A stretch of DNA of 64,000 nt, from the NCBI GenBank assembly GCA_948567375.1, contig OX419760.1, positions 6,200,001 through 6,264,000 of the forward strand, in the 5' to 3' direction. Under the pieces are notes generated by a model. The model was given only the letters and a program-made list of their open reading frames with translations, did no database searches and was not told the DNA's origin. Made by a program: the position numbers and the translations under genes. This document shows positions 21,558 to 49,050 of this stretch, piece after piece. Each line of letters opens with the position of its first letter. The first letter of the stretch is position 1. The DNA is from Lunularia cruciata. Taxonomy: Eukaryota > Streptophyta > Marchantiopsida > Lunulariales > Lunulariaceae.

Positions 21558-21629
21558 TGAACTCGACGTGAATCGAACACGCAACCTTCTGATCTGGAGT
21601 CAGACGCGCTACCATTGCGCCACGAATCC
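21558..21629 (-). tRNA. tRNA-Trp (CCA anticodon)
   Basis: 72 nt on the minus strand. The 5' acceptor strand is GGATTCG (21,629-21,623) and the 3' strand CGAGTTC (21,565-21,559), paired with two G-U wobbles, with discriminator A at 21,558. The D-arm is TGGCGCAATGGTAGCGC. The anticodon stem TCTGA/TCAGA encloses CTCCAGA with anticodon CCA at 21,597-21,595. The T-arm has GTGTTCGATTCAC. Plant nuclear type, no intron. Confidence 0.95.
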
Positions 21630-27300: not shown

Positions 27301-28164
27301 GGTTATAGTTATATTTCTGAAATTTATCATTTAAAAATTAAAGTGAGAATCAAATTTGTGAATGAATTGGTTAGTAAAATAAATAAATTATTTTCTCACT
27401 TATATTTAGTGTCTCTAGAGTTCAATTGGAATAAATGTTATACATCATTTGATATTTACATTTATTGTATTGTAATTGATATTTCAGATATTCTGTTTTT
27501 CCTTATGAGTAGATGGGATCTTATCCAAATACATAAAAGACCAATAGAAGAATATAGTTACTAAAATTGATGAACCAATACTTACCTTCCTACCTGCTGT
27601 ATTTATTAATCCTAGAAAGTTATAGAAATTTAGGTTTCCTTTATGTTCATTTTACTCAACTAACATTGTTCTATATAAGGTTTATTCATACCATAGATGC
27701 TTTTATAGGAGCATAAATTCCAAGAGGAAATTAATAAAATAAAAATGAACCTCTTTAAATTTTAGTTAGCTCATTCTTATATTGGTATGTTGTTAAATCT
27801 CTTTGTTAAAATAATCCATATATGCCATTGTCCATTGGTATTATTTACCGTGTGTTCTAAAATAGATGTGAGTAGTGTTCTAATGATATTGTTCTAGTGA
27901 ATCTATAATCACAAGGTGGGTAAATTTAATAATATCTCTAATTTTTTGTGTGCCTAAATGACAACAATCATTTGCATGGATTCCTTGTGGTGATCCACCC
28001 TTGCCTCACTTGAGTTAAATTTCAATTTTTTTGTTAGTTTAGTAGTTTAAATATGAAGTTGTGCCAAAGGTTGAGAATGAAGATGAATAGAAGTCAGTAG
28101 TCATTAAATGAATCTCTTGCAAAGCAAGGAAGAAGATACAAAGTCCAATCAGGCTATCATGCAT

Positions 28165-28806
28165 GTATACATTGTTACACAACATATATCATTGTCTACA
28201 TCATACATTATAGAAGCACAACTCATAGATAAGTCTTAAATGGACTCTCAAGTGCCACAATAACCAGTTTGTTCACACAACTCAAATCACACTCAATCAG
28301 ATCATTCCTTGATCTATCACTCAATAATTTGCCAATAATTGAGCATTGATTACAATCAAGCCATACCCATTCTAGTGAAGAAAATCCAAGTGATGCTCGT
28401 CAGCCTCTGTCCACCATAGCCAAGAACTTGAATGCTCAACATTAGAGAAGTGAGCTCTCTAGAGCTGCACTTTGAAAGTATACCCCCTGGTCTCCAACCC
28501 TAATGATCTTGCTAATGGCACATCTGATTGTGTGAACAATGCAAGTGACAATGGGCTCCACCATGTAATCAATACCTTGAACACAAAATCTAATTGTCAA
28601 CAAGTAGTCTATGAGTAACTACCAAAATACTCATGACTACCAACACTACTACTCTAGAGTTTGAACAATCTAGGTGCAATGCTACAAATGTGGTGATAGA
28701 TGTTGTGCTTATATACATTGCTACACAATATACATCATTGTCAACATCACACACTATAGAAGCAGAACTCACACATAAGTCATATATGGACTCTCAAGTG
28801 CCACAA
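28165..28806. repeat. Pair of ~98-bp direct repeats
   Basis: 28,165-28,261 (TACATTGTTACACAACATAT and further, ending CTCAAGTGCCACAA) recurs at 28,709-28,806 with about 85-90% identity by eye, offset about 545 bp. It lies beyond the 3' end of the minus-strand methyltransferase element and may belong to its 3' LTR. LTR termini could not be fixed. Confidence 0.65.
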
Positions 28807-29599
28807 TTGGCCTTCCTAATTGGCAATTAGGTCCCTCTAACTCCAAATAACCATCTACTCCAAGTATATGGTATATGCTTTGGTGGGCAAAAGATCAAGA
28901 GGCCAAGTGCTACCAAACCCCATTGTTAGTCTCCTATCTGCAATCTATATCATATAAAGGATGAACTTAATATAGGTCAAGTACATCTAGGACATAATCA
29001 TTGTCCTTGAGGAACCATCATGAGGGGAGGAGTCATACATGCCACATGCCATCCTCTTGAAAAGATATCACACATTAACATAGTAGCAGCTCCACCAGAA
29101 GAACTGCATAACATACACAACAAGCCTACACGTATAAGTGCCAAGCTTGGGTCCATAGTACCAGCAATGTTTGGAAGGTGGCATGGTGCACAATTGCGCA
29201 CATGATCCTTCCAAACAACACCATCACATCCTTCTAACACAAGGACTCAAGATGGCAAAACCTCATGTACTCTCAAGATAGTGCAGCCTATAGACACATC
29301 AAGTGTTATCAATGTTGTCTACTATAGATATACATAGTCACATGGATAAAATTGATGGATCAAGGGTCTATAACCTCCTCCTTAAATGGTAGCATGGCGT
29401 AAGGTATCCCTATGTTGAGCAATTGCCAAGTTCTCAAAGACCATTGGTATCACTCTCCAAAAGATCTTTGCACATTGAGAACATGGGCTTGTCCATACAT
29501 TTGGATCATTTAAGTCCAAAACTACAATAACATCTTGACAAATGGCTATAGGTATAATCTAGATCTTGTCCACAAAGTAGAAAGTAAGAGAGAAGGATG

Positions 29600-30150
29600 C
29601 TAAGGAGGCTCACCATCTAAACCGATAGTCCATGGCCAAACAAGGTAATTGGAGATCCTAATCTCCCAAGTGGCCTCTTTGCAAACCATGCTTCCACAAT
29701 CCTCTCTCCACGGTCTGAACCACTCTCTCTGCTAAGCCATCTGCCTTAGGGTGATCTAGAGCAATAATATGATGATCAATTAAAGCCAAACCCAATCCAA
29801 GAATGAGTAAACCATCTTATCATTGAACTTGTCAAGAAGTGCTATCAACTCAATCCACTTAGAGAAGAACTCCACCATAACCAAAATGTATCAATGATGT
29901 CTCAAAATCAGCGGTAAAGGTCCAACAAAGTCTAAAATCCAATGGTAACCCAACCCCATGATAGGTAATGGGTATAATTATGGTGCAAGAGCATTAAATG
30001 ATGCTCTAACTTGGTCACAAAACACACATCTAGCAACAAACTATTGTACATTAGTCTGCATACTACGTCACCAATAATGACTATGGAGTAAGCTAAATGT
30101 ACACTTTGCTCCAAAATGTCCTAGCTCCTCATGAGCATGACGGACCAACT
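29600..30150 (-). pseudogene. Integrase of the methyltransferase element
   Basis: The reading contains H-E-E-L-G-H-F-G (zinc-binding His pair), then C-V-F-C-D-Q-V (Cys pair), so the HHCC N-terminal domain is complete. The core reads W-I-L-D-F-V-G-P-L-P and V-M-V-E-F-F-S-K-W-I-E-L. Stops and frame changes break it. Its partner domains lie upstream on the same strand (RNase H, RT). Confidence 0.75.
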
Positions 30151-30799
30151 ATGGTCTTTGAGATGGAAGTGATACTACTCTCACTCTACTATCCTCCCAT
30201 ACACAAAGCAAGTGTTTGCTTTCCAATCTGAACAGTTTGGCTCCTTGAAGAATACGATTTCTCTCTTAGGCTCCAATTGTGCCACACACAACACCAAAAA
30301 TAATCCATCACTAAGACATTATCATGAATGTCTTGCTAAATTGTACCACTATCTCCACTCTTTTGAATCTATGACCTCAATAACTCCTCTTGTATGCACT
30401 AAGAGAGATACCACCAAAGCCTAAAACAATATATAGAGAAAGGTAGATGCATGCCAACCTAGCACCATCTCCTCATCTGACATGCCAACATACCAACGTG
30501 CAAACATGCTCTAGTCTGATCCTATTGGCTTGGACATGGTTTCTACTCAACCCATCTGCATCATGGTTCACCACTCTAGGTTTATGATTAATCATACTCT
30601 TGTAAAATTTTTGGAATCATACTCCTATAAAATTAGAGCACATTGTGCAAGCTTCCCTAAAAGCTTGTCAAACTCCATCAACCTATTAAATGGTTGATAA
30701 TAAATGATGAGAGTAAAGGGGTTACCAAATAGGTAACATTGGAAATATACTACTACCCATATTACTACCAAGCACTCTCTCTCATATGACCTATACTTT

Positions 30800-30935
30800 G
30801 CCTATGCTATATTGTTGGAGCGACTACCATAGGCTACCACAAACTCCTTCCCCTCATCATCATTCTAGATGAGCATTGCTCCAAGCCCCAACATACTCCA
30901 ATCAGTGTGAACCTAAAATGGTTGTCCTCTGATTG
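30800..30935 (-). pseudogene. RNase H fragment of the methyltransferase element
   Basis: Reads H-T-D-W-S-x-x-G-L-G-A-M-L-x-Q-N-D-D-E-G-K-E, the start of a gypsy RNase H/RT-connection domain with its catalytic first Asp (D in T-D-W). It is followed by V-V-A-Y-G-S-R-S, interrupted by stops. It lies between RT and integrase as expected. Confidence 0.7.
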
Positions 30936-31189
30936 GTCTCCTCAAAATAGGAGCAGATGTCAACCTCTCATTGAGCTCTACAAAAGCTCGCTCTTGCTCA
31001 TCTCTCCAACACCACTCCTACATAAGCTTGGTCAGCTTTGTTTTGGCAATGACACTAAAACCTCTAACATAACAATGATAGAAGTTTGCCAACCCAAGGG
31101 GTGATCACACTCTACTCATATCTATAGGCCGAGGAATATGTGCAATAACCTCCACCTTGGTCTGCTGAACACCAGTCTTCCAAGGTAGA

Positions 31190-31760
31190 TAGTGTGACCC
31201 AAATACTCAACCTACTCATGGAAGAATCTACACTTCCTAGGATGTAATTTGAGTCCATGAGATCTCAACCTCTCAAACACCTCCAACAAATGTCTCTCAT
31301 GCTCCTCCATAGTAGTGATATCTACCAAAATGTCATCAATATAACATTGAGAAAAATCAAATCCAATTAGGATCCTATCCATGACCCTTTGGAACTCAGC
31401 AAGAGCATTCTTTAACCCAAATAATAGGAACCTCCACTAATATAACACATCCTTAACGTGAGGATCAATAGCCCAAAATGATGTCTTGGACTTATCTTCC
31501 TCCTTGATTGGCAATTGATGATATCATGCTCAAAGATCCAAAGTACTAAAGACCTTTGCATGCCCAATTTCATCAAAGATCTCCTCCATTATAGGCATGG
31601 CATACCAATGAGTCCTAGTCTATTGGTTGATAGGATGGTAATCTCCACACATCCGCCTATCTATTTAGTTGCCATGCATATCCTTCTTGGTTAGCATCAC
31701 TATAGCTGATTCATACTCTCCATGTGAAATCTCTACCAAACCAGCTTCAAAAAGATCTCT
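31190..31760 (-). pseudogene. Reverse transcriptase of the methyltransferase element
   Basis: Almost the whole gypsy RT can be followed in one frame: M-C-G-D-Y-H-P-I-N, A-K-V-F-S-T-L-D-L, D-K-S-K-T-S-F-W, F-L-L-F-G-L-K-N-A, F-Q-R-V-M-D-R-I-L, the catalytic Y-I-D-D-I-L-V near 31,345, and V-E-Y-L-G-H-T-I near 31,195. The TAG/TAA/TGA interruptions lie where relatives have Trp, Arg or Gln codons, which fits C-to-T decay. Its conserved linker (D-L-G-P-K-L-I, F-N-M-K-D-L-G-A-L-K) is at 31,835-32,017. Confidence 0.9.
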
Positions 31761-32019
31761 ACTCCAACTCCGAATCAATGCTCTCTCCATGTCATTATAT
31801 CAATAGGGATGTCAAAAAGTTGATGTATCGCTAGTCAGCTCAATCCAATACCAAGTCCTTTTAGAGCACCCAAATCCTTCATATTGAAAGCAAAACAACT
31901 TTTGTAGCTCCTCAAGAACCTCCAAACTCTTTGTCTGTCCCCTCCTATAAGCTTAGGTCCAAGATCTAGCTCCAAAGTATCCTCTATAACTATCATAAGA
32001 GTGGAAGATGTATTCACTA

Positions 32020-32613
32020 GCTACTACATTGGGACCTAAACATAATTGCATCTAACAACAAGGCATGTCCCATCCAAGAATAGACTTGATGTGTACTCAT
32101 GACCAATGGGGTGCAAGAATCACCCATCAAAGGGATGTTCTCTAAAATGTAAGCTAGAGAAATGGACTGATGAACCTGGAGATGTCATAATATACGTAAC
32201 ATCTCCCAAAACATACCAAAATAGGGATCTTGAAGACACAACCCTCGACCAACATGTGTATGTCTCTTACATGGCCATCCAAAAATCACCAAATGAATGG
32301 GATCATGTCTCTCTAGATCTTGCACTCCCGGTAAGGAAATGTTTATTGGAAGGGTCTTTTGATAACCCGTAACTGTTGACATCAATAATAACTCAAGGTA
32401 TCGATAGGCCAAGTGTGCCACATGATGTAGAGAGACTAGCATAGCAGTCTCATCTCTCTCCACATACAAGTATCTCTGTATTCGTATACCCAATTGTGGT
32501 ACCACAAATAGTCCAGTGCTAATCCCACCAAACAACTCTAGTAGACATACTTCGTCTATTGGATATTGCCAAGCAATGAATGTGGTATCTAGAGTAAGCA
32601 TAAGTACTGCACC
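32020..32613 (-). pseudogene. C5 cytosine DNA methyltransferase domain in the retrotransposon
   Basis: Catalytic part of a C5 cytosine methyltransferase. Motif I (SAM binding) is L-E-L-F-G-G-I-S-T-G at 32,541-32,512, most like the F-D-G-I-A-T-G of the DNMT3/DRM branch. Motif II-like residues are R-Y-L-Y-V-E-R-D-E. Motif IV is L-V-I-F-G-W-P-C, with the catalytic Cys codon at 32,269-32,271, followed by G-R-G-L-C-L-Q-D-P-Y and F-W-E-M-L-R-I-L. After a single TGA (32,185-32,187) the same frame continues to motif VI Y-I-L-E-N-I-P, with the Glu codon at 32,140-32,142. A degenerate motif VIII region (L-L-L-D-A-I-M-F-R-S-Q) precedes a TAG near 32,030. The target-recognition domain and motif X were not recognised, so the domain is shorter than cellular enzymes or truncated. 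Upstream it is in frame with gag's CCHC and Gly/Arg tail across the solo LTR. In an intact element it would presumably methylate cytosines in DNA. Which DNA is unknown. Confidence 0.85.
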
Positions 32614-32617
32614 CTTA

Positions 32618-33336
32618 TGTAATACCAAGGGTTAGCCATATGATCTAGATGTGAAATTTGGTTTGGTAACATCTAGAATGATGTTATACATGATGGTCAA
32701 AATAGATCAGATAGAAGTATCACCAAAAGAGTACTTTTACTAATAGGGCAGAAACCAAAATAGACTTGAGAACCTTAGAACCAATAGCTAGAAATATGAT
32801 TTAAAGGTGAGAATTGGTTTGGTAACATCTGGAAGGATGTTACACATGATGGACTAAACAGATCAGAAAGAGGTATCACCAAAAGGGGACTTCTACCCTT
32901 TAGTAGTAGTAGGAACCGAAATATGCCTGAAATCTTTGAAGGCAATTTTGGATGAATTAGGCCTCAAAAATATGTTGTTTCCCCCCACAATAGAGGGAAG
33001 GTTGGCCTTCTCTCCCCCTGCTTTGTCTCATCAAGAGCTTTCCAACGGTACCTTACTCACATGATTCTAAGATTCCTACAAGAAGATTCCCTCTGGTCAA
33101 AGCTTGTTTGACCAACCAGATAGGACCTAGACCGGACAGGTCACCCATCCAAGTAAGTAATCCAAGGGTGGAGCTTGCTGACATGTCACCTATCTGTGTC
33201 CCTAATCCTATGGTGGAGCTTCCTTGGAGGAGATCCTCTTTGTCTATATAATAAAGAGAAGGTGCTCCCTTGGGGCATCAAATGTTTGAGTGTGCAATCG
33301 GTGTTTTCTCTCGTCTCTTGTCCTTGGAGTATTACA
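32618..33336 (+). mobile_element. Solo LTR, family A (A-LTR3), TSD CCTTA
   Basis: 719 bp from TGTAATACC to GTATTACA, in opposite orientation to the element it interrupts. The 5 bp before it (32,613-32,617) and after it (33,337-33,341) are both CCTTA, a perfect target-site duplication. A promoter-like TATATAATAAAGAG lies near 33,246. The first ~155 bp are imperfectly duplicated in tandem (second unit from about 32,779). Removing the LTR and one CCTTA restores the frame between the Gly/Arg-rich gag tail and the methyltransferase. Confidence 0.92.
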
Positions 33337-33346
33337 CCTTACTAGG

Positions 33347-34421
33347 TGTGGATCCTCTACCACAACCTCTACCACCTCGTCCTCCATGACCTAGAGCTCA
33401 TTTACCACCTACCATAACAACCCTACCACTATGTAATTCCGGGTGTGAGTCAAAGCATCGGTCATTGGTGTGACCAAATCTATGGCAATGCTCACATTGT
33501 CTTTATGTTGGCTGTGATCCACTAGAGGTATCAGGTCCACTACCAAAGTAGGTGAAGAAGCCTATAACAATGTAACATCACATACTCTACATCACAACTC
33601 TTTGTCTAGTATCCCATATCAAAATTGGACTACTTGGGCTTCAATAATTCCTTGAGTAAAACTGATCAGCCATCTCATGCAAGTGTATGAGACGACTCTT
33701 CTCATGTAGGCTTCAGCTTGTTACATATAGGGTATTGGCTCTTCTCACGTAGGCTCTCTCCAGCCTTGCATTGGAACTCTTGCAAGCTCCTTAGCTTGTT
33801 AGTCCATACTCTTTGGTAGTTTTGCCTCAAACACTAGAACAACTCCACCATGGGTTAAACCCTGGTACTACACCACCTCATCTAGTGGTACCTCCACTTG
33901 TAGTAGCACCATCTCCAAGAGATCCACCAACGCTACTAGAGCTAGAATTTGTGGGCCACGCTTGAAGTGATGGAGACATAGTTTGGAGACCAATACTTGT
34001 CTCCCTAGCTCAATCTCCTCCAAGTGAGCTCTCTTGAACTCATGGAAATCATCCATTGGTAGACCCTCTAAGTGCTGAAATAACCCCTTCCATACCATGA
34101 AGGGTGTGAATAAAATTGGGTTCCACATCTGCTGCAGATCACACCAACTATCAAACTCATGGATGAAATTATCCAACTTAAAGGTACCCACCATACCAAA
34201 GTAATGCTTGGGGCCTTTGGAGTCCCCATAAATCTTGTCCATGAGAGTTCAATGATGGCAAAACTTACCATAGAGGTGAGAGACAAAGTGAGACAAGAGA
34301 GACATGTAGATATCATTAGCAAACCTCTTGAAATTTCTAAGTGAGGCTTAAACCACCAATTGGATAACCTAAGAATTAAAATTGTAGATTTCTTACTATG
34401 GGATTGGAGTCCGTCAAACAT
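33347..34421 (-). pseudogene. gag of the methyltransferase element, with CCHC knuckle
   Basis: Minus-strand gag with K-L-D-N-F-I-H-E-F-D-S-W-C, then E-G-L-P-M-D-D-F-H-E-F-K and broken frames further on. A canonical zinc knuckle C-E-H-C-H-R-F-G-H-T-N-D-R-C (C-x2-C-x4-H-x4-C) is at 33,496-33,455. It is followed by a Gly/Arg-rich tail, G-H-G-G-R-G-G-R-G-C-G-R-G, at about 33,400-33,355. The tail runs in the same frame into the methyltransferase once the solo LTR is removed. Frameshifts make it non-functional. Confidence 0.75.
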
Positions 34422-34429: not shown

Positions 34430-36110
34430 AGAAGAGATTTGCAACAATACCTATAAATTTGAGAAGAAATCCTATTTTTTGGATAGAAGACCATTGGCAA
34501 TGAGTGTTGGGACACAAGTGCTTGCCCTTTGGCCAAATATACATAAACACTCCTCAAGGTTGTATTTGTAAGAGCCTCAAAGCCAAAATAAAAGACTTAT
34601 TTATTGACAAGAAGTTGACACACATATATTGAATAGATGATCTCAAAGATCCTACTTAACAGGTCATCACAAAAATGATCATGAAACTCTTCAAGTCAAA
34701 ATGAATAGCCTACATAAACCTAAACCAAGCAATTTTCTTCCAACTTCTACATAAAGAGAAACCTTGTAAGTTGGGCATGAATGTTTTGAGAATGTGTCAA
34801 TAAGCTATTGTAGATGTGACTAAAGGAGGAGCTACAATTATAGCACACTTTGTTTTGCATTTGTACATAAGAATGGACCTTCTTATGGAAGAAGAGAAGG
34901 TGAAATACCTTGGCTACTTCCACCATCCAATATATTTCAATAGGCACCCAAACCTACTTAGGGAACTAACAAAATACTATGAGGTAGATGAGGAGTATGC
35001 TTGTTTGAAGGAGTTAGTATTTGTCAAAGATTCCTACCATAGGATGATTCCTTGTAAGAAGGTGCTAATAGCATAATCCAAGATCTAAGCCTTCAAGAAA
35101 CAAAAGCAAAATGTCCGAATGGTGGACAAGTCATCTGGTGAAGTGGAAGCAAAGAATCTCCCATAAATGAAGGGAATGATGATAAAATGGGCAAAGCGGG
35201 TCAATCTGCATCACAAATTACATATTGTTGCTTTGGGACATAATAAATAGTCAAGAAGTGATAATTCCTTCACTAGGATTTCATTGCTTGGGATGGATGA
35301 TGAGGTGAACATAGAGGATTAGGATGATGAAGTGTAGTTGTTTCAAATAACAAACAAAAATGAAAATATGGTTGGATCTCAAAAGAAGGGGAAATGATAG
35401 TAGAAGAAGATGAGGATATCCTTATCTTCCCCTTAAAAAGGATGCCAAAGAAAGCAACCACCATCATAGACTTTATCCTAAGTATCCTTGAAAACAAAGC
35501 TAGGTCATCAAGGAGCAAGCCAGATGACAAGAACCATATGAAAGAACAAGATCAAGTTAACAAAGAACATGGTTTGGATAAGGAATCACCTACAAAAGAA
35601 GAGGTCCTTAAAATGAAGGAGGAGGAGTACACAAGAGTGCACCTATAGGACAAGAGTGGAAATGTAGTCACATTTTATAATGCAGCAATTGCTCATAAAG
35701 AGGAGAGAGTGGAAAAAACAAATCAACCTATGAGCCTAAGGCCAAAAAAAAAAGATAGACAAAGAAGGAGAGCACTACTAAAGAAATCCTATGCCGCTTA
35801 AAACTCAAAGGAATTCACTTTCTTGGCTGATAATAGTCTATATGGTGAATATGGTGGCACTATAAAGGGAGACCTTAGAAGAAATAATGCCATTTTACAA
35901 GGAACTTGATCCTACAATCAAAGACCTTGTAACACTTGTACAACATCTCCACCAACTACCTCAATTTGAAGTGAAGGACAAGGCCCTACTTTGTAACAAG
36001 CAGAATAAGTTCAAAGAGCTTGAGACCAAAGAAGTGACATCTAAAGAGAAGGACATAGTGCTAGAGAAGTAGCATAAGGAAAAAAAAGAATGATGGGAAA
36101 AGAATGAGGC
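34430..36110 (+). mobile_element. Element E4, left part: Lys-rich gag-like coding sequence
   Basis: Plus-strand coding remnant with stops. Pieces read L-A-L-T-L-W-P-N-I-Y, M-D-L-L-M-E-E-E-K-V-K-Y-L-G-Y-F, Y-E-V-D-E-E-Y-A-C-L-K-E-L-V-F-V-K-D-S-Y, an acidic stretch E-E-D-E-D-I-L-I-F-P-L-K-R, D-K-S-G-N-V-V-T-F-Y-N-A-A-I, then a Lys/Glu-rich region. It ends at the M3 insertion and continues in the same frame at 54,829. The charged, coiled-coil-like architecture and the setting suggest a structural (gag-like) protein of a retroelement. I do not recognise a named family, and a captured host gene remains possible. Its left edge abuts the methyltransferase element's gag. Confidence 0.5.
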
Positions 36111-37205
36111 TATAAAAGACCAATAGTAGAATGGAAATATTAGAATGGAAGATCAAAGTGAAAGATCACATTGGGACTCTTGAATTAGGGAAACTCCAAA
36201 TGTCTAGCATGAGCTTGGGCTTTGGTATTTATAGGGAATATACAAGGCTCTTGAGAAGCTTCTCAAAAAGCTTCCTAGAGCCAGCTTCTTAGAGTGCAAG
36301 CAAAGCTAATCAGGAAGTTTCTTGAGAAACTTCCTTCTAGAAATCATCTAATTGGCATGTAAGCTAAACTAGTCAAGAAGCTTCCCAAGAAGCTTATTTT
36401 TAAAAGCCACCTATTTGGCATACAAGCTAAGCTAGCCGAGAAGTTTTCCAAAAAATTTCCTCCTGTAAGTGTAATATTTCAAGGACAAGAGAACCCTCAA
36501 GAGAAACACAAGCAAGAAAACACAAAACTTCACACTCAATACTTTGGTGCCCTAAAGGAACACCTTGTCTTTATTATATAGCAAAGAGTATCTCCTCAAA
36601 GGAAGTTCCATCCTTGGATCAAATCCATGGATTGGTGATCTGTTAGAAAGTTATTCCCTTAGATTAGTTCCATGGATGGGTGACATATTGTCCTTGTCCT
36701 ATTTGGTTGGTCAAACGGGTTGATCAAAGGGAATCTTTAGAGAATCTTCTTATAGGAAGCTCAAAATTATATGGGTGAGGTACCATTGGAAAGGTCTTAA
36801 GGGAGGGAGGGTGGGCCTTTTTCCTTACAAGAGGAGGAAAATCTTCTCATTTTCAAGGTCTAATCTATCCATTTAGGTCTCCCAAATTGGCTTTGAAATT
36901 TAAAAGGTGTTTTTGACTCCTACTCTATTTGTGGAAGTACTCTTTTGGTGACACCTCTATTTGATCTACTTAGTCCATCATATATAACATCCTTTTTGAT
37001 GTTACCAAGCTAATTTCCATATTTAGATGTCTAGCTATTGGTATTAAAAGAAGCCATCACTTGATATGCACATTACTCAATACTTGGAAGGTACCGAGTA
37101 GCTTCCTAGATGGTTCAAGAATATTCTTATAATTCTTGGCTAATTTGGCCTATTTGTTACTTTTTTATTCTCAACTAACTCATCTATAAATTCTATATTG
37201 TTACA
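36111..37205 (-). repeat. M3 3' LTR with nested family-A LTR
   Basis: Begins TATAAAAG (LTR end, TG mutated to TA) and ends ATTGTTACA on the plus strand. Family-B LTR sequence is readable on both sides of the nested family-A copy at 36,470-37,048. GAAGCTTC-type modules and a TTTATAGGG TATA region (reverse) are near 36,225-36,270. Confidence 0.85.
36470..37048 (-). mobile_element. Solo LTR, family A (A-LTR1)
   Basis: 579 bp, minus orientation, inserted in the M3 3' LTR. The plus strand starts TGTAATATTTC and ends GGTATTAAA (CA end mutated). Flanks GTAAG and AGAAG fit a worn 5-bp duplication. Single-unit type without the 155-bp duplication. Confidence 0.8.
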
Positions 37206-37267
37206 TATTCTCCCACTGTTAGTTGGTGACCTCCTTGTCACCATGGAAACTTCAAACTCTTGGATGG

Positions 37268-37814
37268 TGTGATACGCGTAGCTAGATATATTATCTAGAG
37301 GTGGAAATTGGCTTGGTAACATCTAGAAGGATATTATATATGATGGACTAAGTAGATCAGATAGAGTTTTCACCAAAAGAGTACTTCAACTAATAAGGCA
37401 GAAGTCAAAAACACCTTGAAAACTTTAGAGCAAATTTTGGAGACCTAAACAAATGAGTTAGGCCTTGAAATTACCCTCTCCCATGGCCAAAAAAGGTTGG
37501 CCTTGATGAAGATTGATTTTTTGTCTCATTGGGAACTTTCCAACAATATCTCACCCATGCAATTATGAGCTTCCTAAAAGAATATTCCTTAAAAATTCCT
37601 TCTAGTTAAACTTGTTTGACCAATCATATAGACAAAGGATGGTGTCACCCATCCACGCAACTAATCTTAGAGTGGAGCTTACTAACATGTCATCAATCCA
37701 TATATCTGATCCAAGTGTGGAGTTTCCTTTGAGTGGATCCTCTTTGTTATATAATAAAGTCAAGTGCTCCTTTGGGGCATCGGAGTATTGAGGAACTAAA
37801 GCTTTGTGTCTCTT
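37268..37814 (+). mobile_element. Truncated family-A LTR (A-LTR4)
   Basis: Starts TGTGATACGCGTAGCTAGAT (LTR start) and runs through the TATATAATAAAG region near 37,748 to about GTGTCTCTT, where the terminal ~50 bp are missing. Then M3 chromodomain-coding sequence (CCATACCCTTTCCAAAGG) resumes. The insertion plus a deletion removes most of the M3 chromodomain. Confidence 0.75.
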
Positions 37815-40672
37815 CCATACCCTTTCCAAAGGACTTTGTACTCCATATGTTGTTGACGGCCATGTTGAATGTGGCAAAGCGTAAGGATAAAATCAACTTC
37901 ATACTCCTCAGATTGTTGATAGAGACAAGAGGAGGAGGGAGTTGAATACAAGAGGAAAAGGAAGATGGATTAGAAAAAAAAGGTTTCAAATTGGAAACAT
38001 GAAAGGTAGGGTGAATTTTCATTTGACAAGGCAAGTCAATAAGCACTAAGAGAAAAGATTTGGTTGATATCAAATGGACCTATTCAATAAGGAGCAAGTT
38101 TATGCACGTTGATATCAAGAGGGAGAGTAGGTTATTAGAAGAAAGTATGACCTTATCGCACTTATTGTGTTTGACAATTTTGAGCAACAAGGAGATGAGA
38201 TTTGGCTTGTTGTTGGGATTGGGATATTATGGTCAAGAAGGTGAAAGTATGAGAGACATGAGATGGAGGAGAAGTAAGAATAAAATCTTGAACAAGTGGG
38301 TCTTGGAAATATATTAGGAAGAAAAGAGAGAATCTTGTGCTTGCCTATTTGGAATTATTGTAGGTAAACTCAATAATTGTAAGATATTCATCCCAATTGG
38401 TATGATGACTATTGACAAAGGCATGAAGCATATCCTCCAAGGTGAAATTTTCACGTTTGGTTTGTCCATCAATTTGAGGATCATAGGTTGTGGAAAAGCA
38501 AGCTTGGTGTTGAGTAGCTGGAACAGTGCTTGCCAATGTTTTTGGTGAATTGAGGATCATAAACAAAGATGAGTGCACAAGGCATCCCATGATGCTTGAA
38601 GATATTATAAAAGTAGATTTGGGCCAATGTTGGAGCATCCATTATATCAAAGGTTGGTGCTAAATAGGTTTGCTTACTAAGCTTATTGACAAACACCATC
38701 ATTGTTGTGTGGCCTTGCTTTGTCTTGGACAAAGATGTGATCAGATCTAAGCTTACATGTTCCCATCAAAGAGATGGATGGGAAGTGGTTGAAGGAGTCC
38801 ACTTAGTTTTTGGTTATTGGTCTTGTTGCATTGGCAGCTCTCACAAGATCAAAAAAACCTCAAACATTGCATGCCATGTTGGGCCATCATCATTGGCATT
38901 GTAGGGTACCCAAGGTCTAGTCCAGACCCATGTGACCAACAAATGGTAAGTCATGGGCTTCTTAAAGGTGCACAAGTTCTAGATCACCCTTGGCTAGAAC
39001 ATAGATCTGGTTCTCATAGAATAGAAGGTCTTCCTTGAAGGAGAAAGTGTGTTATTCTTTATCATGTGTTGCAAGTTGACCTTGTATCATTTGAAAGGAG
39101 TATTGTTGTAAAGTGGTCTTAAACTCAATTTGGACTTTTGAGTCAATTGATGCTATTGTAATTGCTATTGTGATTAGAGGAAGAGACTCCAAATTAGGTC
39201 ATTGTAATAGGGCATTAGGGATGACATGGAACCTATCAAGTTTGTACTCAAGTTTGAGGTCAAACAATTGTAGTTGTTCCTCCCATCAATGATTTCAACT
39301 CTTCATATGCTCCAAATATAATGTCTACAACAAGCGTTTGTGTTCAATTTGCATGATCACTTATTTCCCCAAGAAATAATGCCTCCATACCTTGGTGGCA
39401 TATACCATTGTTAGTTGATCTTGATCTCAAGCAATTTTTTTGTTTTTGGTGTTTAGTCGATGAGACACAAAGGCAATGGGATGTACCCACCCATCTAGAA
39501 ATTCTTATTTCAATACAACTCCAATGACAAAGTTAGAAGCATCAAAATCAACCACACAAGGTAGTTGAGGATCATATGATTGAAGAATGGATCTTGAAGA
39601 CACCATATATTTCAGTATTTGGAATGCCTCTTTGTGCTTGGTGGTCCATTTAAAGCTAGAGGTCTTTCCCAAGAGTTTGGTCAATGGTGTGACCATATGA
39701 GCATAGTTGTTGATGAATCATTAGTAAAAAATTGCCAATCTATTAAATACCCGTACATCTATGGCATCCTCTGAAATAGGCCAGTCAATAATGGCTTTGA
39801 TTTTCTCCTTTTCCATCTTGATCTCCACTCTAATGAGATCTTATGACCCAAGAAGGTAACTTCCTTTTGCCAGAAGGTACTCTTTGACTTCTTGTAGCAA
39901 AAATTCCATTAACATAGTCATCTTTGGACTTCTTGCATGTGAATTATATGTTCTACCTCTATCTTACTATAGATTAAAATATCATTCAAGAACAACACCA
40001 TGTATCTATCCAATAGCCTACCCAACATCTGTTGCATCTGATCCATGAAGACTATTGGAGCATTAATGAGCCCAAAAGGTAGAACTTTACATTCAAAATA
40101 CCCATACCTTGTGCAAAAGGTAGTCTTTTGTGCATCCTTTCTATCAATGAGAATTGCCAATATCCACTCTAGAGATCCAACTTGGAGAAGTATCTTTCTC
40201 CACTCAATAGATCTAGCAAGTCATCAATTCAAGGTAAGGGATATGTATTCTTCACTATTTGTTTATTGAGGCTATGATAATCAATATAGAAGCAAAGTCC
40301 TCCATCCTTCTTTGGAACAAATAGTATTGGTGCTCCCCAAGGAGATGTACTATATTGTATAAAATCCTTCTCTAACAACTCTATTAATGTTATTTGAAGT
40401 TCATCCAACTCCTTTAGTGAGAGTCAATAGATTGGTCTATTCATAGAGTACTTCTTGGCAATAATGCAATCTTGAAAGGCATATCACAATCAAAGGTAAT
40501 CTCTCCAGCAGATCATCTAGAAACACATATGCAAACTACTGAACTATTTAATCAATCATTGCTTGATGAGACTTTGGCCCTCATCATATTCTCTATGCAC
40601 AATAAGCTTGATCCACATTGCAAAACTAGTAATTTCTTCCTCCAAAGCTTACTCTATGGTTGCTTCACTAAT
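37815..40672 (-). pseudogene. M3 pol: RT, RNase H, integrase, chromodomain remnant
   Basis: Minus-strand order. RT about 40,480-39,840 (K-V-L-P-F-G-L-I-N-A; catalytic block F-L-N-D-I-L-I-Y-S-K near 39,985, with the first Asp of F-x-D-D changed to Asn). RNase H about 39,700-39,290 (Y-D-P-Q-L-P-C-V-V-D-F-D-A-S-N-F-V-I-G-V-V-L). Integrase about 39,080-38,350 (V-F-V-N-K-L-S-K-Q-T-Y-L-A-P-T-F). C-terminal H-P-T-F-H-V-S-N-L-K-P-F leads to a chromodomain cut by A-LTR4. The sequence is interrupted by stops throughout. M2 is inserted just upstream of RT. Confidence 0.85.
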
Positions 40673-41139
40673 TGTAAAAGACCGATGCCAAGGAGAAAAA
40701 TAGGAGAATGGAAGATTGGAGTGGAGATCACATTGGGACACTTCAATGAGGGAAACTCCAAATGCCTAGCATAAATTTGGGCTTTGGTATTTATAGAGAA
40801 GCATACAAGGATTTTGAGAAGTTTCTAAAAAGCTATTTTCTTAGAGTGCAAGTCAAGCTAACAAGGAAGCTTCTCAAGAAACTTCTTTCTAGAATTCACC
40901 TACTTGGCTGCAAACTAAGCTAGCCAAGAAGCTTCCTTCTTGAAGCCACCTACTTGGCATGCAAGCTAAGCAGCTAGGAAGTTTCCCAAGAATGAATCAC
41001 TACTTGACATGCACATTACCCAATACTTGGAAGGTACCAAGAAGCTTCATAGATTCTTTTAGAAACTCTAGGATAACTTAACACTATTTGCTACTTTGTT
41101 AGTCTTAACTAACTCATTGATAAACTCCATATTGTTACA
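40673..41139 (-). repeat. M2 3' LTR
   Basis: 467 bp. Plus strand from TGTAAAAGACC to ATTGTTACA. A purine-rich tract (minus strand) abuts it at 41,140-41,160, as expected before a 3' LTR. Confidence 0.88.
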
Positions 41140-41177
41140 TATTACTCCATTGCGAGTTGGTGACGTCCTCATCACCA

Positions 41178-44000
41178 TTAAAGCTTCAAACTCTTGGATG
41201 ACCATTTGTGCATTTTGGAGATGAGAAAGAGGCTCCCAAGGGGCATCATGAAGGGGATACCCTTTCCAAAGGACCTTATACTCAATATGTTGTTGGCAGC
41301 CATGTTAAATGTGATGACACACAAGGATATAATCAACTTCATACTCTTCATGATTGTTAATAGGCACGAGAGGAGGAAGGGGTTGGCCATGAGAGGAAAA
41401 GGAAGATGGATTAGAGAAAAGGGTTTCAGCTTGGAAATATGAAAGATAGGGTGGATTTGAATATGAGAAGGCAAGGTAAGTTGATAAGCAACAAGAGAAA
41501 TGATTTAGGTGACATCAAATAGACCTATCTAATTAAGAGCAAGTTTATGGACTTAGATATCAAGTGGGAGGGGTAGTTTTCTACAAGAAAGCATGACCTT
41601 ATCACCAAGTTGAAAAGTAAGATCACAATAGTGGAAGTCCGCATATTGTTTTTGACAATTTTGAGCAACAAGGAGATGAGATTTGGCTTGTTGTAGGGAT
41701 TGGGATATGGTGGTCAAGAGTGGGAAATATGAAAGACATGAGATGGAGGCAAATCAAGAAGGGAATCTGGAACAAGTGGGTCTTGGCCAAAAAGGAAGAA
41801 GAAGAGAATCTGGTGCTTGCATGTTTGGAATTATTGGATGCAAACTCAACAACTACAACAGACTCATCCCAATTGGTATGATGAATGTTGATAAAGGCAT
41901 GAAACATATCTTCCAAGGTGCAATTTTCATATTTAGTTTATCCATCAATTTGAGGATGATAGGCAATGGACAAAGCAAGCTTGGTGTTGGGTATTTGGAA
42001 GAGTGTTTGCCAAAATTTTCCAACAAAACAAGGATCACGGTTGGAGATGAGTACACGAGGCATCCCATGATGCTTGAAGACATTGTCAAAGTACATTTGG
42101 GCCAATGTTGGAGCATCCACTATATCAAAGGTTGGTGCCAAATGGATTTTTTTACTTAGCTTATCCACAAACACCATGATTTTATATGATCTTGCTTTGT
42201 CTTGGGCAAGGATGTGATGAGATCTAAGCTCATATGTTCTTATCAAGTAGATGGGATGGGAAGTGGTTGAAGGAGTCCACTCGTTTTTTGGTTACTAGCC
42301 TTATTACGTTGGTAGCTCTCACAAGATCAGATAAACTCTTGAACATCTTGTGCCATGTTGGTCCACCACCATTGGTGTTGTAGGGTACCCAAGGTCTTGT
42401 CCACACCCATGTGACTAGCGATTGGTAAGTCATGGGCTTCTTAGAGGCACACAAGTCAAAGATTACCTTTGGTTGGAACATAGATCCGGTTCTCACAAAA
42501 TAAAAGGCTTTTCTTGAAAGAGAAGGTGTTGTACTTCATGTTGCATGTTGCATGACAACCCTAGGCCATTTGAAAGAAAGGATCTTGTTGTAAAGCTATC
42601 TTAAACTCAATTTGGACTTTGGAATCAATTGACACCATCATAATTGCCGCCGTGATGAGAGGAAGAGACTTCAAATCAGGTTGTTGTGATACGCATGAGG
42701 GGTTGACATGAAATTGGCTGGGTTTGTACTCAAGTTTGATGTTAAGAAATTATAGTTGTTCTTCCCATTGATGATGTCAACTCTTCATGTGTTCCAAATG
42801 TAATATTTGCAACAAGGGTTTTTGATTGGTTTGCATGGTCACTTGTTTCTCCAAGAGATAATACCTCCATACCTTGGTGGCATATACCATTTCTAGTTAT
42901 TCCTAATCTCAAGTAAAGTAATTCCTTTCTGTAGTATTTAGTCAGCAAGACACAAAGGCAATAAGATGTAACCCATCTAGGAATTCCTAATGCAACATGG
43001 CTCCAATCACAAAGTTAGAAGTATCAAAATCAACCACACAAGGTTGTTGAGGGTCATATGGTTGAAGAATAGGTCTTTAAGACACTATATTTTTAGCTTT
43101 TGGAATGATTTTTTTGTGCTTGGTGGTACATTGAAAACTCAAGTTCTCCCTAAGAGGTCAATCAATGGTATAATCACATGAGCATCATAGTGGATGAACC
43201 ATCAGTAAAAACTTGCCAATCCATTAAATGCCCATACTTCTATAGCATCCTTTGGAGTAGGCCAATCAACAATGGCCTTGATTTTCTCCTCTTCCATCTT
43301 GATCTCCTCCGATGAAATCTTGTGACCCAAGAAGGTAACTTCCTTTTACTACAAGGTATAGTTTGACTTCCTGCAATAAAATGATGTAGTCGTCTGAGGA
43401 CTTCTCATATGTGATTTGTGTCATCTGCCTCTGTCTTGTTATAGATTAAAGTGTCATCCAAAAACACCACCACATACCAATCCAATAGCCTATCCAACAC
43501 CCAATGCATTTGATCCATGAAGACTACTGGAGCATTAGTGAGCCCAAAAGGCAGAACTCTCTATTCAAAATGCCCATACCTTCTATGAAAGGTAGTCTTT
43601 TGCACATCTTCTCTATCAATGGGATTTTCTAATAGTTGCTTTGAAGATCTAACTTGGAGAAGTATTGTGCTCCACTCAATTGATTGAGCAAGTCATCAAT
43701 TTGAGACAAGTGATATGCATTCTTCACTGTTTGTTTATTGAGGTCATGATAATCAATATAGAAGCAAAGTCTTCCATCCTTCTTTGGAACAAATAGTATC
43801 GGTACTCCCCAAGGAGATGTACTATGTTGTGTAAAATCCTTCCCCAACTACTCGATTAGTGTTGTTCTAAGTTTATCCAACTCCTTTGGTGAGAGCCAAT
43901 AGATTGGCTACTCACTATAGTACTTCTTGGCAATAACTCAATTTTGAAGGGCATACCACAATCAAAGGGTAATCCCTTTGGTAGATCATATGGAAACATA
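41178..44000 (-). pseudogene. M2 pol: RT, RNase H, integrase, chromodomain
   Basis: RT about 43,960-43,240 with [21 protein letters not shown] and V-F-L-D-D-T-L-I-Y near 43,455. RNase H about 43,090-42,640. Integrase about 42,500-41,600 with V-F-V-D-K-L-S-K-K-I-H-L-A-P-T-F-D and F-K-H-H-G-M-P-R. C-terminal H-P-I-F-H-I-S-K-L-K-P-F and a chromodomain near 41,370-41,180. Frames are interrupted repeatedly, so non-functional. Confidence 0.85.
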
Positions 44001-44299
44001 TTTGAAAACTCATAGACTATTTGATCAACTATTGCTTGATGAAACTTCTAGCCCTCCTCAAATTCTCCATGTGCAATTGGCTTGATCCACACTGCAAAAA
44101 TAGACTTATCTTTCTACAAAGCTTGTTCTATGGTTGCTTTATTGACAAACTTCCCATCTTGGGACTTGCCTTCCTTCAACGTGTGCTCTATAGCTACTTT
44201 CTTAATAAACTTCCCATCTTGGGATTGATTATTCTTAGATGTCTTACTCAAAGATGCCAAACAACATCATTAGAAATTCTTACTTTGGTGTTGTACTTG

Positions 44300-45700
44300 A
44301 ATTTATCATTGGGTCAAATCAAATAGAACCTTGTGATATTCAAGCAAAGGCAAACCTAGAATGACATCATAGTGTAGAGATGTCACTACAAACCTTATCC
44401 ACTCCACATACTCCTTTCTAATCTTGAATGTAACCGGATGTGAGGTATGGAATATAGAACCCTTTCTACCATCCACCATCATCAATCTACTTTTAATTAT
44501 TGGCTTGATAGGAATACTTAAAATTCCTTTGCTAATTGCTTGGATATGCAATATTCTTTGAACTTCTAGAATCCACCAAAAATATACAACCATGGTCAAA
44601 TATCATACCTTGCAAGTGAAGCAAACTTGCATAGGCTGAGCTTTCAATCCCATTGGAACTAATAGGTAACTCAAAAATCTCTTATTGGGATTCATTATTT
44701 CCTTGATCATTTTACTCCACAAACTCTATTTGGGCAATTTGTTGAGGTCATTCATTCTTGAGTGGACATTCAACAATGCAATATCTAATTTGGCAAGAAT
44801 AAAAGCAAACAGCATTTTGTTGCAATCTTTCTCTACCTGCAATGCCAAGTGGTCTTTGTTAGATGGCATCAATCTCCATTGGTTTGGGCTTCACCAATCA
44901 TGTGTAGTGTATTGGTAGGTTTTGTGGAGGTTGAGCTTGAGACCAAGTTGTTGCAACCAAGGAATCAAAGCATTCAACCTACTACATGGCTTCCTCCAAC
45001 TATTTTGGCTCTTGCATGATCACCTTTAGTTTGGTTTGTGACTTCAAGCCCCTCACAAATCAATCCATAGCTTCACCTTCCAATATATCTAGAATTTGCA
45101 TGATGGTGTTCTAGAATTGCATGATGTAGCTTCTTATAGAGCCAATTTGCTTAAAATATACCAACCTATCTCGTGCAGCTCGTATGACATTTAAAGCTTG
45201 GAATCAACTAATTATTTTACTCTTGAATTCTACCCATGTCAAGATTGGTGTAAAAAATTGCCATAAAAAATTGCCATTTAGCTTACTCTACTTAGAATTG
45301 CCACCATAGTTTTGCTACTCTATCCAATTGGCTAGAAGCCAAGAGAATCTATTTCCATTCATTTTGAAGATTTGTAGCTTCAAAGTGATGTTTGTAATCA
45401 AACACAAATTCTTCACTGCATCCGAGAGATTCTTGCCTTCAAATACCTTAGGCTTTGAAAATTGTATTTGGTCTTTTTCTTCTCAAAATAATGCTCTCTC
45501 TACTTGATCTTATCATTGATGATCTTGTTCTTCCAACAATCAAGTAAGGTGCTAGATTTGTTGTTGAATGGCAATGATAACCATAGGCATTGCCACCATG
45601 ATTAATAATCTATCAAACTACCTATAGTTGATCTAAGTTGACATGTAGATGCAACACATCCACCATTCTCCATAAGTTACAATCAAAAGTACCAAGTGTT
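44300..45700 (-). pseudogene. M2 gag, zinc knuckle and protease
   Basis: Protease-like frame 44,599-44,306: I-P-I-K-P-x-I-x-S-R-L-M-M-V-D-G-R-K-G-S, then P-L-H-Y-D-V-I-L-G-L-P-L-L-E. The knuckle near 44,810-44,765 is degraded (C-F-Y-S-C, H changed to Y or C). Gag follows to about 45,700. Order and homology match B1. Confidence 0.75.
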
Positions 45701-45853
45701 TGTCAGACAAGGTGATTGCATTCAAAAAAATTTACCCAAAGTGTGAGATGATAAACTGAGTGAATAATTTTTGGTTAGTACATGGACACAAAAATCACAA
45801 TGGTTTGGCAAAAATGGATTTGGTGGTCCATAAATTCCATCCATCCTATTCTT

Positions 45854-45865
45854 GCTCTGATACCA
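45854..45865 (-). other. Primer-binding site of M2 (initiator tRNA-Met)
   Basis: Minus-strand TGGTATCAGAGC, identical to the standard plant retrotransposon site complementary to the 3' end of initiator tRNA-Met, one base inside the 5' LTR. Confidence 0.92.
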
Positions 45866-45866
45866 A

Positions 45867-46346
45867 TGTAAAAGATTGAGATCAAGGAGAGAAATAGGAG
45901 AATGGAAGCTTGGAGTGGAAGATCACATTGGGACACTTGAATGAAACTCCAAATTTCTAGCATGAGCTTGAGCTTTGGTATTTATAGGGAAGCATGCAAG
46001 GCTCTTGAGAAGCTTCCTTAAAGTTTTTTTCCTAGAATGCAAGTCAAGCTAACTAGGAAACTTCTCAAGAAGTTTCCTTTTAGAAGTTGCATACTTGGCA
46101 TCTAACCTAAGCTAGCCAACAAGCTTCCCAAGAAGCTTCTTTCTAAGAGCCACCTACTTGGCATGCAAGTTAAGCTAGCCAAGAAGCTTCCCAAGAATGA
46201 ATCACCACTTCACATGCATGTTACCCAATACTTGGAAGGTACCAAGAAGCTTCCTAGATGCTTCTAGAATATTCTAAGCTAATTTAGCGTATTTGCTACT
46301 TGTTTAGTCTTGACTAACTTGTTTGGTAAACTCCATATTGTTAACA
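45867..46346 (-). repeat. M2 5' LTR
   Basis: 480 bp, plus strand TGTAAAAGATTG to GTTAACA. It contains several GAAGCTTC modules and a perfect three-unit HSE pattern TTCTAGAATATTC at 46,262-46,274. A minus-strand TATA box (TATAAATACC) lies near 45,978-45,987. Confidence 0.9.
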
Positions 46347-47573
46347 ACATTGACAAACTTCCCATCTTGAGAATGACTATTCATAGATGTCTTATTCAAA
46401 GGTGCAAGACAACCTGATATGTAATTCTTATTCTTGGTGTTGTACTTGATTTTGTCATTGGATCCAAACAAATGGAACCTTATGATGTTCAAACCAAAGC
46501 AAACCTAGAATTACATCATAGTGTAGAGGTGTCATTCAAATCTCATACACTCCAAATATTCCTTTCTAATATTGAATGTAAAAAGATGTGAGATACAGAA
46601 TACACTTTCTACCATCCACCATCATCAATCTACTTCTAATTACTAGCTTGACAGGAATATTTAATTTCTTTACTAATTGCATGGATATGTAATTCATTGA
46701 ACTTCCAAAGTCAACTAAAATCTTACAACCATGATCATATATCATACCTTATAAGTGAAACAAACTTGCATAGTTGATCCTTCAATCCCATTGGAACTAG
46801 TCAAGTTTCTAGTAAGTGGCTTGAATTTTCTTATTAGGATTCTTCATTTCCTTGATCATCATGTTCCATACACTCCATTTGGGCAATTTATCAAGGTCAT
46901 CTATTCTTGAGTGGACATTCAATAATACAATGCACAATTTGGTGATAGTAAAAGCAATCACCTTTTTATCCTAATCTTTCTCTATCTATAGTGCCAAGTG
47001 GTCTCCATTAGATGGGATAGATCTTCATTGGTGCCGGCTCCTCCACTTATGTGTAGTGTGTGGGTAGGTTCTATGAAGAAGGTTGAGGTCAAGACCAAGT
47101 TGTTATAACCAAGGAATCAAAGTGCATGGCTTCCTCCAAGTGTTTGGGCTCTTGTATGGTTATATCCAATTTTGTGCATGACTTTAAACACCTTCCAAAT
47201 TAATCCAAAGCTTCACCTTCTAATATATCTGAAAATTGCATTATGTTGTTTTGGAATTGATTGATATAATTTCTTATAGAACCAATCTACTTCAATTCTA
47301 CCAATCTATCTCATACAATTAGTGTGGCATTTATAGTTGAGAAGTGCCCAATTATTGCACTTTTGAATTCTTTGCATGTTGAGCTTGGTGCTACAATTTG
47401 CCATTCAACTTGCACCACTCAAAATTGCCATCATAGTTTTGCCACTCCATCCGATTGGCTTGAAGCCAAGAGAATTTATTTAGTTCATCTTGAAGATTTG
47501 TAGCTTGAAAATAATATTCATAATCAAACATACAATTCTATATTACGATTAGGAGATTCTTACTTTTAAATAC
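46347..47573 (-). pseudogene. M3 protease-to-gag segment between M2 and B1
   Basis: Homologous to M2 44,140-45,440 in the same order: protease end (counterpart of D-V-I-L-G-L-P), degraded zinc knuckle near 46,930-46,970, then gag. It stops at the B1 target site (AATAC) and resumes at 53,220. Confidence 0.8.
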
Positions 47574-47958
47574 TATAACAATATGGAGTTTAGTGACAAA
47601 GTTAGTAGGGCTAACAAAGTAGCAAACAAGATAAATTAGCCTAGAATATTCAAGAAGTATCTAAGAAGCTTCTTGGGAAGCTTCTCAGCTAGCTTAGCTT
47701 GCACCTGAAGTAAGCAACTTCTAGAAGGAAGTTTCTTGAGAAGCTTCCCAATTAACTTGGCTTGTACTCCAAGAAAGCAGCTCCAGGAAGCTTCAAGAGC
47801 AGCTCAAGAAGTAGCTCAAGAAGCTTCAAGAGCCTTGTATGATCCCTATAAATATAAGAGCCAAAACTCATGCTAGACATTTGGAGTTTTCCCTCATCCA
47901 AGTGTCTCAATGTGAGCTTCCATTTTCCTATTTCTCTCCTCGGTCATTGTCTTTTACA
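47574..47958 (+). repeat. B1 5' LTR
   Basis: 385 bp, from TATAACAATATGG (TG mutated to TA) to GTCTTTTACA. It contains GAATATTCAAGAA at 47,645-47,657, GAAGCTTC at 47,666-47,673 and 47,678-47,685 and further modules, and TATAAATA at 47,847-47,854. It is shorter than the 3' LTR because of indels in the module-rich part. Confidence 0.93.
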
Positions 47959-47959
47959 C

Positions 47960-47971
47960 TGGTATCAAAGT
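47960..47971 (+). other. Primer-binding site of B1 (initiator tRNA-Met)
   Basis: TGGTATCAAAGT, two transitions away from the consensus TGGTATCAGAGC found intact in M2, one base after the 5' LTR. Confidence 0.9.
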
Positions 47972-48199
47972 AAGAATAGGATGGATGGAATTTATGGCCC
48001 ACCAAATCCACTTCCACCAAACCATTGGGATTTTCACGTCCAAATATTACCCAAACATCATTTCATCCAATTCATCACCTTGTGTTTTGGGTAGGATTTT
48101 TTGCATATGATCACCTTGTCTGAGGAACCCTTGATACTTCCAATTGTAACTTATGGAGACTGGTGGACTTGTTGCATCTATGTGTTAATCAATTAGATA

Positions 48200-49050
48200 A
48201 ATTGAGAGTAGTGGGATAGAGTAGTAGCTATGGCGGCAATACCAGACATTATCCTTGTAATGAAGCAACAAATCAAGCACCTTACTCAATTGTTGGATGA
48301 ACAAAGGCAATAACGACAAGAACATATAGAGAGAGCACCAATTTGAGATGGAGAAGATCACATCCGATTTCCAAAACCCAAGGTGTTTGAAGGCAAGAAT
48401 CTTCCAAGAATAGTAGAGAATTTTGTGCTTGACTACAAACGTTACTTTGAAGCCACCAACCTTCAAGATGAATAAAAACAGATCCTCTTGGCTTCTAGCC
48501 AATTGGATGGTGTGGCAAAACTTTGGTGGTGATTCCAAGTGGAGCAAGCAAAACAACAAATTTTTGTACCAATTTTGATATGGGAAGAATTCAAGGATGC
48601 ATTACTTGGTTGATTTCAAACTATAAATGCAACCCGAGTTGCACAAGATAAGTTAGCGGAGTTGAAGTAGATTGGCTCTATAAGGAGCTACATCATACAA
48701 TTCGGAATATAATCATGCAAATTCCAGATATACAAGAAGGTGAAGTTCTAGATTGATTTTTGCGGAGATTGAAGGCACAAACCAAATTGGAGGTGACCAT
48801 GCAGGAACCACAAAATGTAAAAGAAACCATGCAATTGGTTGAGCGCTTTGATTCCTTGGTTGCAACAACTTGGTCTCAACCTCAACCTACGTAAAGCTAC
48901 TAGTACACTATGCATGGGTGGAGGAGCCAATACTAATGGAGATTGATGCTATCCAACAAAGACCACTTGGTACAACGGATAGAGAAAGATTATGACAAAA
49001 TGGAGGTTGTTTTTATTGTTGCCAAGTTGGACATCACATTGTTGAATGTC
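48200..49050 (+). pseudogene. B1 gag with CCHC zinc knuckle
   Basis: The frame reads I-L-V-M-K-Q-Q-I-K-H-L-T-Q-L-L, then H-I-R-F-P-K-P-K-V-F-E-G, F-V-L-D-Y-K-R-Y-F-E-A, L-D-G-V-A-K-L-W-W and W-E-E-F-K-D-A-L-L, the typical retrotransposon gag core. The knuckle C-F-Y-C-C-Q-V-G-H-H-I-V-E-C (C-x2-C-x4-H-x4-C) is intact at 49,008-49,049. Several stops are present upstream. Confidence 0.88.

Follow-up and report, generated by a model that had tools for sequence, protein, structure and literature searches.

The window, a 64,000-nucleotide stretch of the Lunularia cruciata genome, carries a broken Ty3/gypsy-type element on its minus strand (~28,153-34,243), and within this element about 60% of a C5 cytosine methyltransferase is preserved, counted from its N terminus, with motifs I, IV and VI (Table 1). 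The first-pass annotation described the locus as a retrotransposon with its own methyltransferase, and its motif positions are correct: the CCHC knuckle, LELFGGISTG, the motif IV Cys, the motif VI Glu and YIDD all lie where it claimed. It also read the nucleocapsid (NC) and the methyltransferase as parts of one minus-strand frame, followed by the reverse transcriptase (RT), with a gag-NC-methyltransferase fusion as the design of the element. But is such a fusion there? The three parts lie in three different frames, and the methyltransferase stretch reads without a stop through 148 codons (32,631-32,185) up to an in-frame TGA, beyond which it can be aligned on to 32,047. Nor does NC run straight into the methyltransferase, as the two are separated by a 719-bp repeat that has TAAGG at either flank. 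This repeat has kin elsewhere in the window (self-comparison) and is a later insertion, solo-LTR-like by its ends.

Table 1. Features of the window with position, strand and remarks
Feature	Position	Strand	Remark
gag remnant	33539..34243	-	75% to L009 2673-3362
NC CCHC knuckle and Gly/Arg-rich tail	33337..33544	-	CCHC 33,496-33,455; tail 33,353-33,385
inserted 719-bp repeat, solo-LTR-like	32618..33336	-	TGTAATAC...GTATTACA; TAAGG duplicated at 33,337-33,341 and 32,613-32,617
methyltransferase N-terminal part, DNMT3-like	32047..32594	-	82% DNA identity to L009 5339-5886
motif I LELFGGISTG	32,541-32,512	-	
motif IV Cys codon	32,271-32,269	-	
in-frame TGA within methyltransferase	32,182-32,184	-	
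motif VI Glu codon	32,142-32,140	-	
TAG where the family's ORF1/ORF2 stop sits	32024..32026	-	deletion of motifs VIII-X ends directly before TAG
RT - RNase H - integrase remnant	29789..32037	-	84% to L012 5324-7557; frameshifts and stops
YIDD of RT	31,343-31,332	-	
PHD-finger remnant, one stop	28980..29126 (approximate; end by codon count)	-	
repeat B1	28700..28807	-	
repeat A2	28281..28696	-	about 74-75% to young copies
repeat B2, element 3' end	28153..28261	-	87% to B1
tRNA-Gly (GCC)	17,197-17,267	+	
tRNA-Trp (CCA)	21,558-21,629	-	

Eight 9.9-kb stretches of the same genome (L009-L016) were examined as fuller copies, and they place a long linker and a putative protease between NC and the methyltransferase. 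Compared with L009, the window copy lacks two stretches: 3866-5338 (1,473 bp), holding this linker and the putative protease, and 5887-6652, which covers the methyltransferase from roughly motif VIII onwards together with the linker that follows; in this alignment nothing of motifs VIII-X is left in the window copy. The 3' end of the element, missed by the first-pass annotation, consists of a PHD-finger remnant and repeats in the order B-A-B (28,807-28,153). Alignment to the fuller copies found no repeat A between 34,243 and 38,500, i.e. no 5' repeat upstream. How old is this copy? Its B1 and B2 are only 87% alike over 102 bp (self-comparison), whereas B1 and B2 of three young copies differ at 0-3 positions over 107 bp. 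The window copy is accordingly old; it is a dead derivative shaped by deletions and makes nothing. What looks like a fusion came about by chance in this one copy, through deletion of the putative protease, insertion of the 719-bp repeat after NC and loss of motifs VIII-X.

Other parts of the window hold features of their own. Further copies of the solo-LTR-like repeat lie at 53,935-54,628, 36,515-37,042 and 37,279-37,781, and the same repeat flanks the genome copy L012 (9345-9901). A diverged repeat family occupies 36,100-54,800, with direct and inverted copies of up to 3.6 kb that are 72-82% alike. Between 24,000 and 28,000 the GC content falls sharply to 22-24%, against 36-44% elsewhere, and no ORF of 100 codons is listed there. 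On the plus strand, a 400-codon ORF at 59,782-60,984 looks F-box/kelch-like by eye, and a 188-codon ORF at 12,240-12,806 ends, also by eye, in a heavy-metal-associated-like domain.

Are the methyltransferase motifs of such a degraded copy meaningful? Among 5.8 billion proteins the window stretch has 19 relatives, with identities of 51-59% and a best E of 2e-63, which shows that the motifs are not chance. PF00145 is annotated on 13 of the 19, and the one relative with a named host comes from the liverwort Calypogeia fissa. The window's own pieces gave zero Pfam matches, even at E<=1, an outcome that the first-pass annotation had named as speaking against its reading; PF00145 emerges through the relatives and the fuller copies.

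The genome searched was the window's own assembly, with 74 contigs and 565,766,749 bases in all. Of 12,436 first-look candidates for the Calypogeia protein, 122 were scored as matches, 67-69% identical, and some of these lie in open frames of at least 1,400 codons. A 26-mer from the ORF1/ORF2 junction, with up to two mismatches, has 1,756 genome matches, whereas the reversed control has 0. In the fuller copies the order is gag-NC-putative protease-DNMT3-UAG-RT-RNaseH-integrase-PHD finger. ORF1 has 1,428 or 1,448 codons in L009, L014, L015 and L016 and is interrupted by stops in the remaining four; in all eight it closes with TAG, behind which pol continues in the same frame. Pfam searches with pieces of one copy returned, in order, DNA_methylase (9e-8), RVT_1, RT_RNaseH, Integrase_H2C2, rve and PHD (9e-12), while Retrotrans_gag reached E=0.026 in the same copy, below the cut-off. 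The RT - RNase H - integrase order and the DDE integrase mark the element as gypsy-type. Two CCHC knuckles are further parts of ORF1 in the fuller copies, as is a protease-like motif, LLDSGA (residue 762 of P0020). Pfam found no protease in the protease piece of L009; the assignment combines this motif with the protease domains (PF13650/PF13975) of the relatives P0039, P0064 and P0168.

The fuller copies that the first-pass annotation proposed to look for thus exist in number, and the methyltransferase is part of the gypsy element in them. Twenty further copies were selected by an exact match to the junction, from the sites listed for C1 and C2 other than those among the 122, and the methyltransferase is in place in 19. 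The exception, L063, lies ~5 kb from the methyltransferase of L023, and the two are therefore probably one interrupted element. By its identity and anatomy, the window segment is what remains of a member of a Ty3/gypsy-type family with a DNMT3-like methyltransferase as a standard part, a reading to which we give a probability of about 0.8. The paper on a 580-Mb Lunularia cruciata assembly (PMC9985172) ascribes the larger genome mainly to Ty3/Gypsy bursts; the word 'methyltransferase' does not occur in its main text.

Could the window copy have arisen in another way? Taken alone, the window is compatible with a host methyltransferase pseudogene or retrocopy that landed in an ordinary gypsy element at this site only. 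This is hardly credible given the same domain in the 122 scored genome matches and in 19 of the 20 junction copies, which lead us to reject a capture confined to the window, and given the proteins of Marchantia, Sphagnum and Closterium that join a methyltransferase to RT. The NC-methyltransferase arrangement might instead define a genuine protease-less subfamily, as the 1,473 bp missing relative to L009 are a multiple of three and the fusion could once have been open. We consider this very unlikely: the window's NC/methyltransferase junction is unique among the 40 matches scored in its own genome (of 1,689 candidates), the other 39 starting at query base 19-25, and the copy that has it is old and also without motifs VIII-X.

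The ends of the element are unusual for a gypsy-type retrotransposon in that two identical full LTRs do not flank it; the repeats are split as A...B-A-B instead. Five of seven copies (L009, L012, L013, L014 and L015) have repeat A (449-458 bp) as their 5' end and close with B-A-B at the 3' end; L016 was left out as its 5' end is missing. The elements begin with TG and finish with CA, and a 4-bp target duplication is present in all seven copies with both ends seen. In the other two of the seven, L010 and L011 (the latter with L045), the 3' end is B alone, which leaves no terminal direct repeat, although the 4-bp target duplication is present. The sequence CA-GC-TG at the B1-A2 border resembles two joined element ends, and from this we infer that ends may be joined, or a circle formed, during replication. 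Between A1 and A2, five copies show only 3-9 differences over 449 sites, which makes these insertions recent.

What kind of enzyme does the family encode? The window copy alone shows motifs I, IV and VI; VIII and X come from the family profile. Searched against the PDB, this profile matches DNMT3A best (7e-22), followed by DNMT3C (4e-19) and DNMT3B (5e-18), and blocks I, IV-VIII and X align in order with DNMT3A, unrearranged. Matches to DRM (1e-8 to 7e-7), HhaI (8e-7) and DNMT2 (4e-6) are weaker. By sequence comparison, then, the family methyltransferase is DNMT3-like. The first-pass annotation had preferred a DNMT3/DRM type to a bacterial one; the preference over the bacterial type holds, with HhaI rejected as best match, whereas DRM is rejected as its match is confined to profile positions 8-136. 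DRM motifs are described as rearranged in PMC5890265.

The catalytic Cys and Glu are kept in 28 of 28 gap-free copies of the set ranked by protein similarity and in 11 of 11 of the junction set. Among relatives with an assigned layout, the Cys is present in 45 of 47 (the other two are gaps) and the motif VI Glu in 47 of 47; 39 of the 86 element rows are without a layout type and were left out of these counts. Is the enzyme under selection? In the junction set, chosen regardless of protein similarity, N/S relative to a context-matched expectation is 0.80, and stops are more frequent than expected (200 vs 88 pair counts); 11 of its 20 copies are gap-free and two of these 11 are free of stops. 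N/S falls to 0.52 of expectation in the 28 copies ranked by protein similarity, and to 0.70 for the RT of eight copies from that set. The value of 0.80 and the few stop-free copies indicate that most recent copies are decaying and that constraint has left a modest trace. CpG loss was considered as a trace of self-methylation and rejected: observed/expected CpG is 0.43-0.53 in the element and 0.46 in the window, so CpG is no scarcer in the element and composition shows no such trace.

The stop between ORF1 and pol deserves attention. TAG is present in all 30 readable copies (31 examined, 30 of which align across the junction), although young copies share descent and the 30 count as little more than one observation. 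The bases that follow are CAGCCA in 28 and CAGCTA in two; both fit UAG_CAR_YYA, given as the tobamovirus readthrough consensus in PMC3542737, and the downstream frame is open into pol. With even base use, CARYYA would occur by chance once in 512. No stable RNA fold was found behind the UAG (z=0.77), and an RNA structure at this place was rejected. A second in-frame TGA, before the PHD finger, was also rejected as a true boundary, being TGA in four and CGA in three of seven aligned copies. Do the relatives have the stop? Marchantia P0022, P0023, P0027, P0028 and P0031, together with P0024, end 68-73 residues past the methyltransferase match, and P0034-P0041 end 79-127 residues past it; such protein ends would be expected from a stop there. 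Marchantia P0025, P0026, P0030 and P0033, known from protein models alone, run into RT, which may reflect splicing in the gene models or absence of the stop.

Relatives occur in the liverworts Marchantia polymorpha, M. paleacea, Riccia sorocarpa and Calypogeia fissa, in Closterium, in the mosses Sphagnum fallax, S. troendelagicum and S. tenellum, and in metagenomes (120 of 242 relatives were listed in one search, and the best ~8,000 candidates were scored in both searches); most of the named hosts are known from methyltransferase proteins alone and not from whole elements. Methyltransferase and RT are joined in one protein in Marchantia, Sphagnum fallax and Closterium. Two layouts can be distinguished, with the methyltransferase between protease and RT (A) or, in metagenomes, between RNase H and integrase (B). 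They are separated in both the methyltransferase and the RT trees (quick method), the former having DNMT3A as sole outgroup and long branches that meet at the root; A and B may go back to one capture or two. Motif IV of P0046-P0062 often reads ECQ, not PCQ (11 of 18 typed B rows). The Lunularia cruciata domain groups with Marchantia and Calypogeia (20 rows, SH-aLRT 100). Its RT is 80% identical to that of Marchantia P0026 over 193 columns, and for the methyltransferase the identity reaches 71% among the matches listed, values that would fit either long constraint or transfer between hosts. In sequence, the PHD finger comes closest to the fingers of CHD4, KMT2C/D, PHF12, DPF3 and KDM5. Scans of viral contigs confirmed no relative.

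Retrotransposons bearing a DNMT are not new: de Mendoza et al. (2018, PMC5890265) described them in Symbiodinium and in Klebsormidium nitens, presenting the latter as an independent capture in its lineage, and a 2025 survey that cites this work (PMC12344493) mentions retrotransposon DNMT3s in streptophytes and dinoflagellates. The closest described system is KnitGypsy-Dnmt3 of K. nitens, which shares gypsy-type domains, an unrearranged DNMT3-type methyltransferase and, going by the legend of Fig. 4 in PMC5890265, DIRS-like A-coding-B-A-B repeats (here in five of seven copies). It is described with the DNMT in the Pol ORF, whereas here the methyltransferase closes ORF1, upstream of the UAG; the word PHD is absent from the main text of PMC5890265, whereas a PHD finger ends Pol here; and the present family has far more numerous copies than described for the algal element and lives in a liverwort. 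The likeness is one by description, as no Klebsormidium sequences were found among the relatives listed (120 of 242). SymbioDIRS-Dnmt3 and SymbioLINE-Dnmt of Symbiodinium likewise combine a retrotransposon with a cytosine methyltransferase, the former with split repeats and a DNMT3 type as well, but are described with tyrosine recombinase or LINE machinery in place of a DDE integrase. The type B metagenome polyproteins (P0046-P0063, P0065, P0066) share gypsy pol, a DNMT3-like methyltransferase and, in many, a PHD finger, but have the methyltransferase between RNase H and integrase and stand apart from type A in the trees. Animal DNMT3A/B, the best PDB match, have the motif blocks in the same order; here no PWWP or ADD domain is seen and the catalytic domain lies inside a retrotransposon polyprotein. 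A search of openly available papers turned up none that describes gypsy elements with a DNMT from liverworts or mosses. The kind has been known since 2018; as far as the searched literature shows, its occurrence in a land plant, combined with a PHD finger and a readthrough site, is new.

Why would a retrotransposon carry such an enzyme, and why in this position? Lying before the UAG, the methyltransferase would be made at a Gag-like level and packaged, while tobamovirus-type readthrough of the UAG would yield a smaller amount of Pol. The protease could then cut the methyltransferase free in the particle, where it might methylate the element's new cDNA. The PHD finger on the Pol tail may read histone H3 and guide integration. 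New copies would arrive pre-methylated, with less harm to the host or less recognition as foreign DNA. Self-methylation of the cDNA by the family enzyme is a serious candidate, though we place it a little below even odds. A wider and clearly more tentative proposal is a streptophyte-wide lineage (liverworts, Sphagnum, Closterium and the metagenome hosts) with a writer-reader pair, in which the DNMT3 methylates the cDNA before integration, the PHD finger picks chromatin by its H3 state and UAG readthrough keeps particles rich in methyltransferase; that all of these parts hold together is rather unlikely.

Could the methyltransferase belong to the element and leave its cDNA unmethylated? It might be a nucleic-acid-binding or structural part of Gag, or act on RNA or on host DNA. 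The lack of a CpG trace in the element and the weak selection in the junction set agree with this, as does the Klebsormidium domain, which was inactive in yeast (PMC5890265), a result that its authors call inconclusive; the SymbioDIRS-Dnmt3 domains of dinoflagellates are reported in the same paper to methylate CG in yeast. A structural role would not, however, require the catalytic Cys and Glu, which are retained in the young copies and in the typed relatives, and we regard an enzyme that spares the cDNA as improbable.

What does the family mean for its hosts? It brings the DNMT-bearing kind into a high-copy, recently active land-plant family with relatives in the genetically tractable Marchantia, a setting in which one could test directly for what reason a silencing enzyme travels on a transposon. 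The PHD finger hints at a tie between DNA methylation and the choice of integration site. If the DNMT3 and the PHD finger do act as writer and reader, these elements would install their own silent, tolerated epigenetic state and would have multiplied in a land plant thereby.
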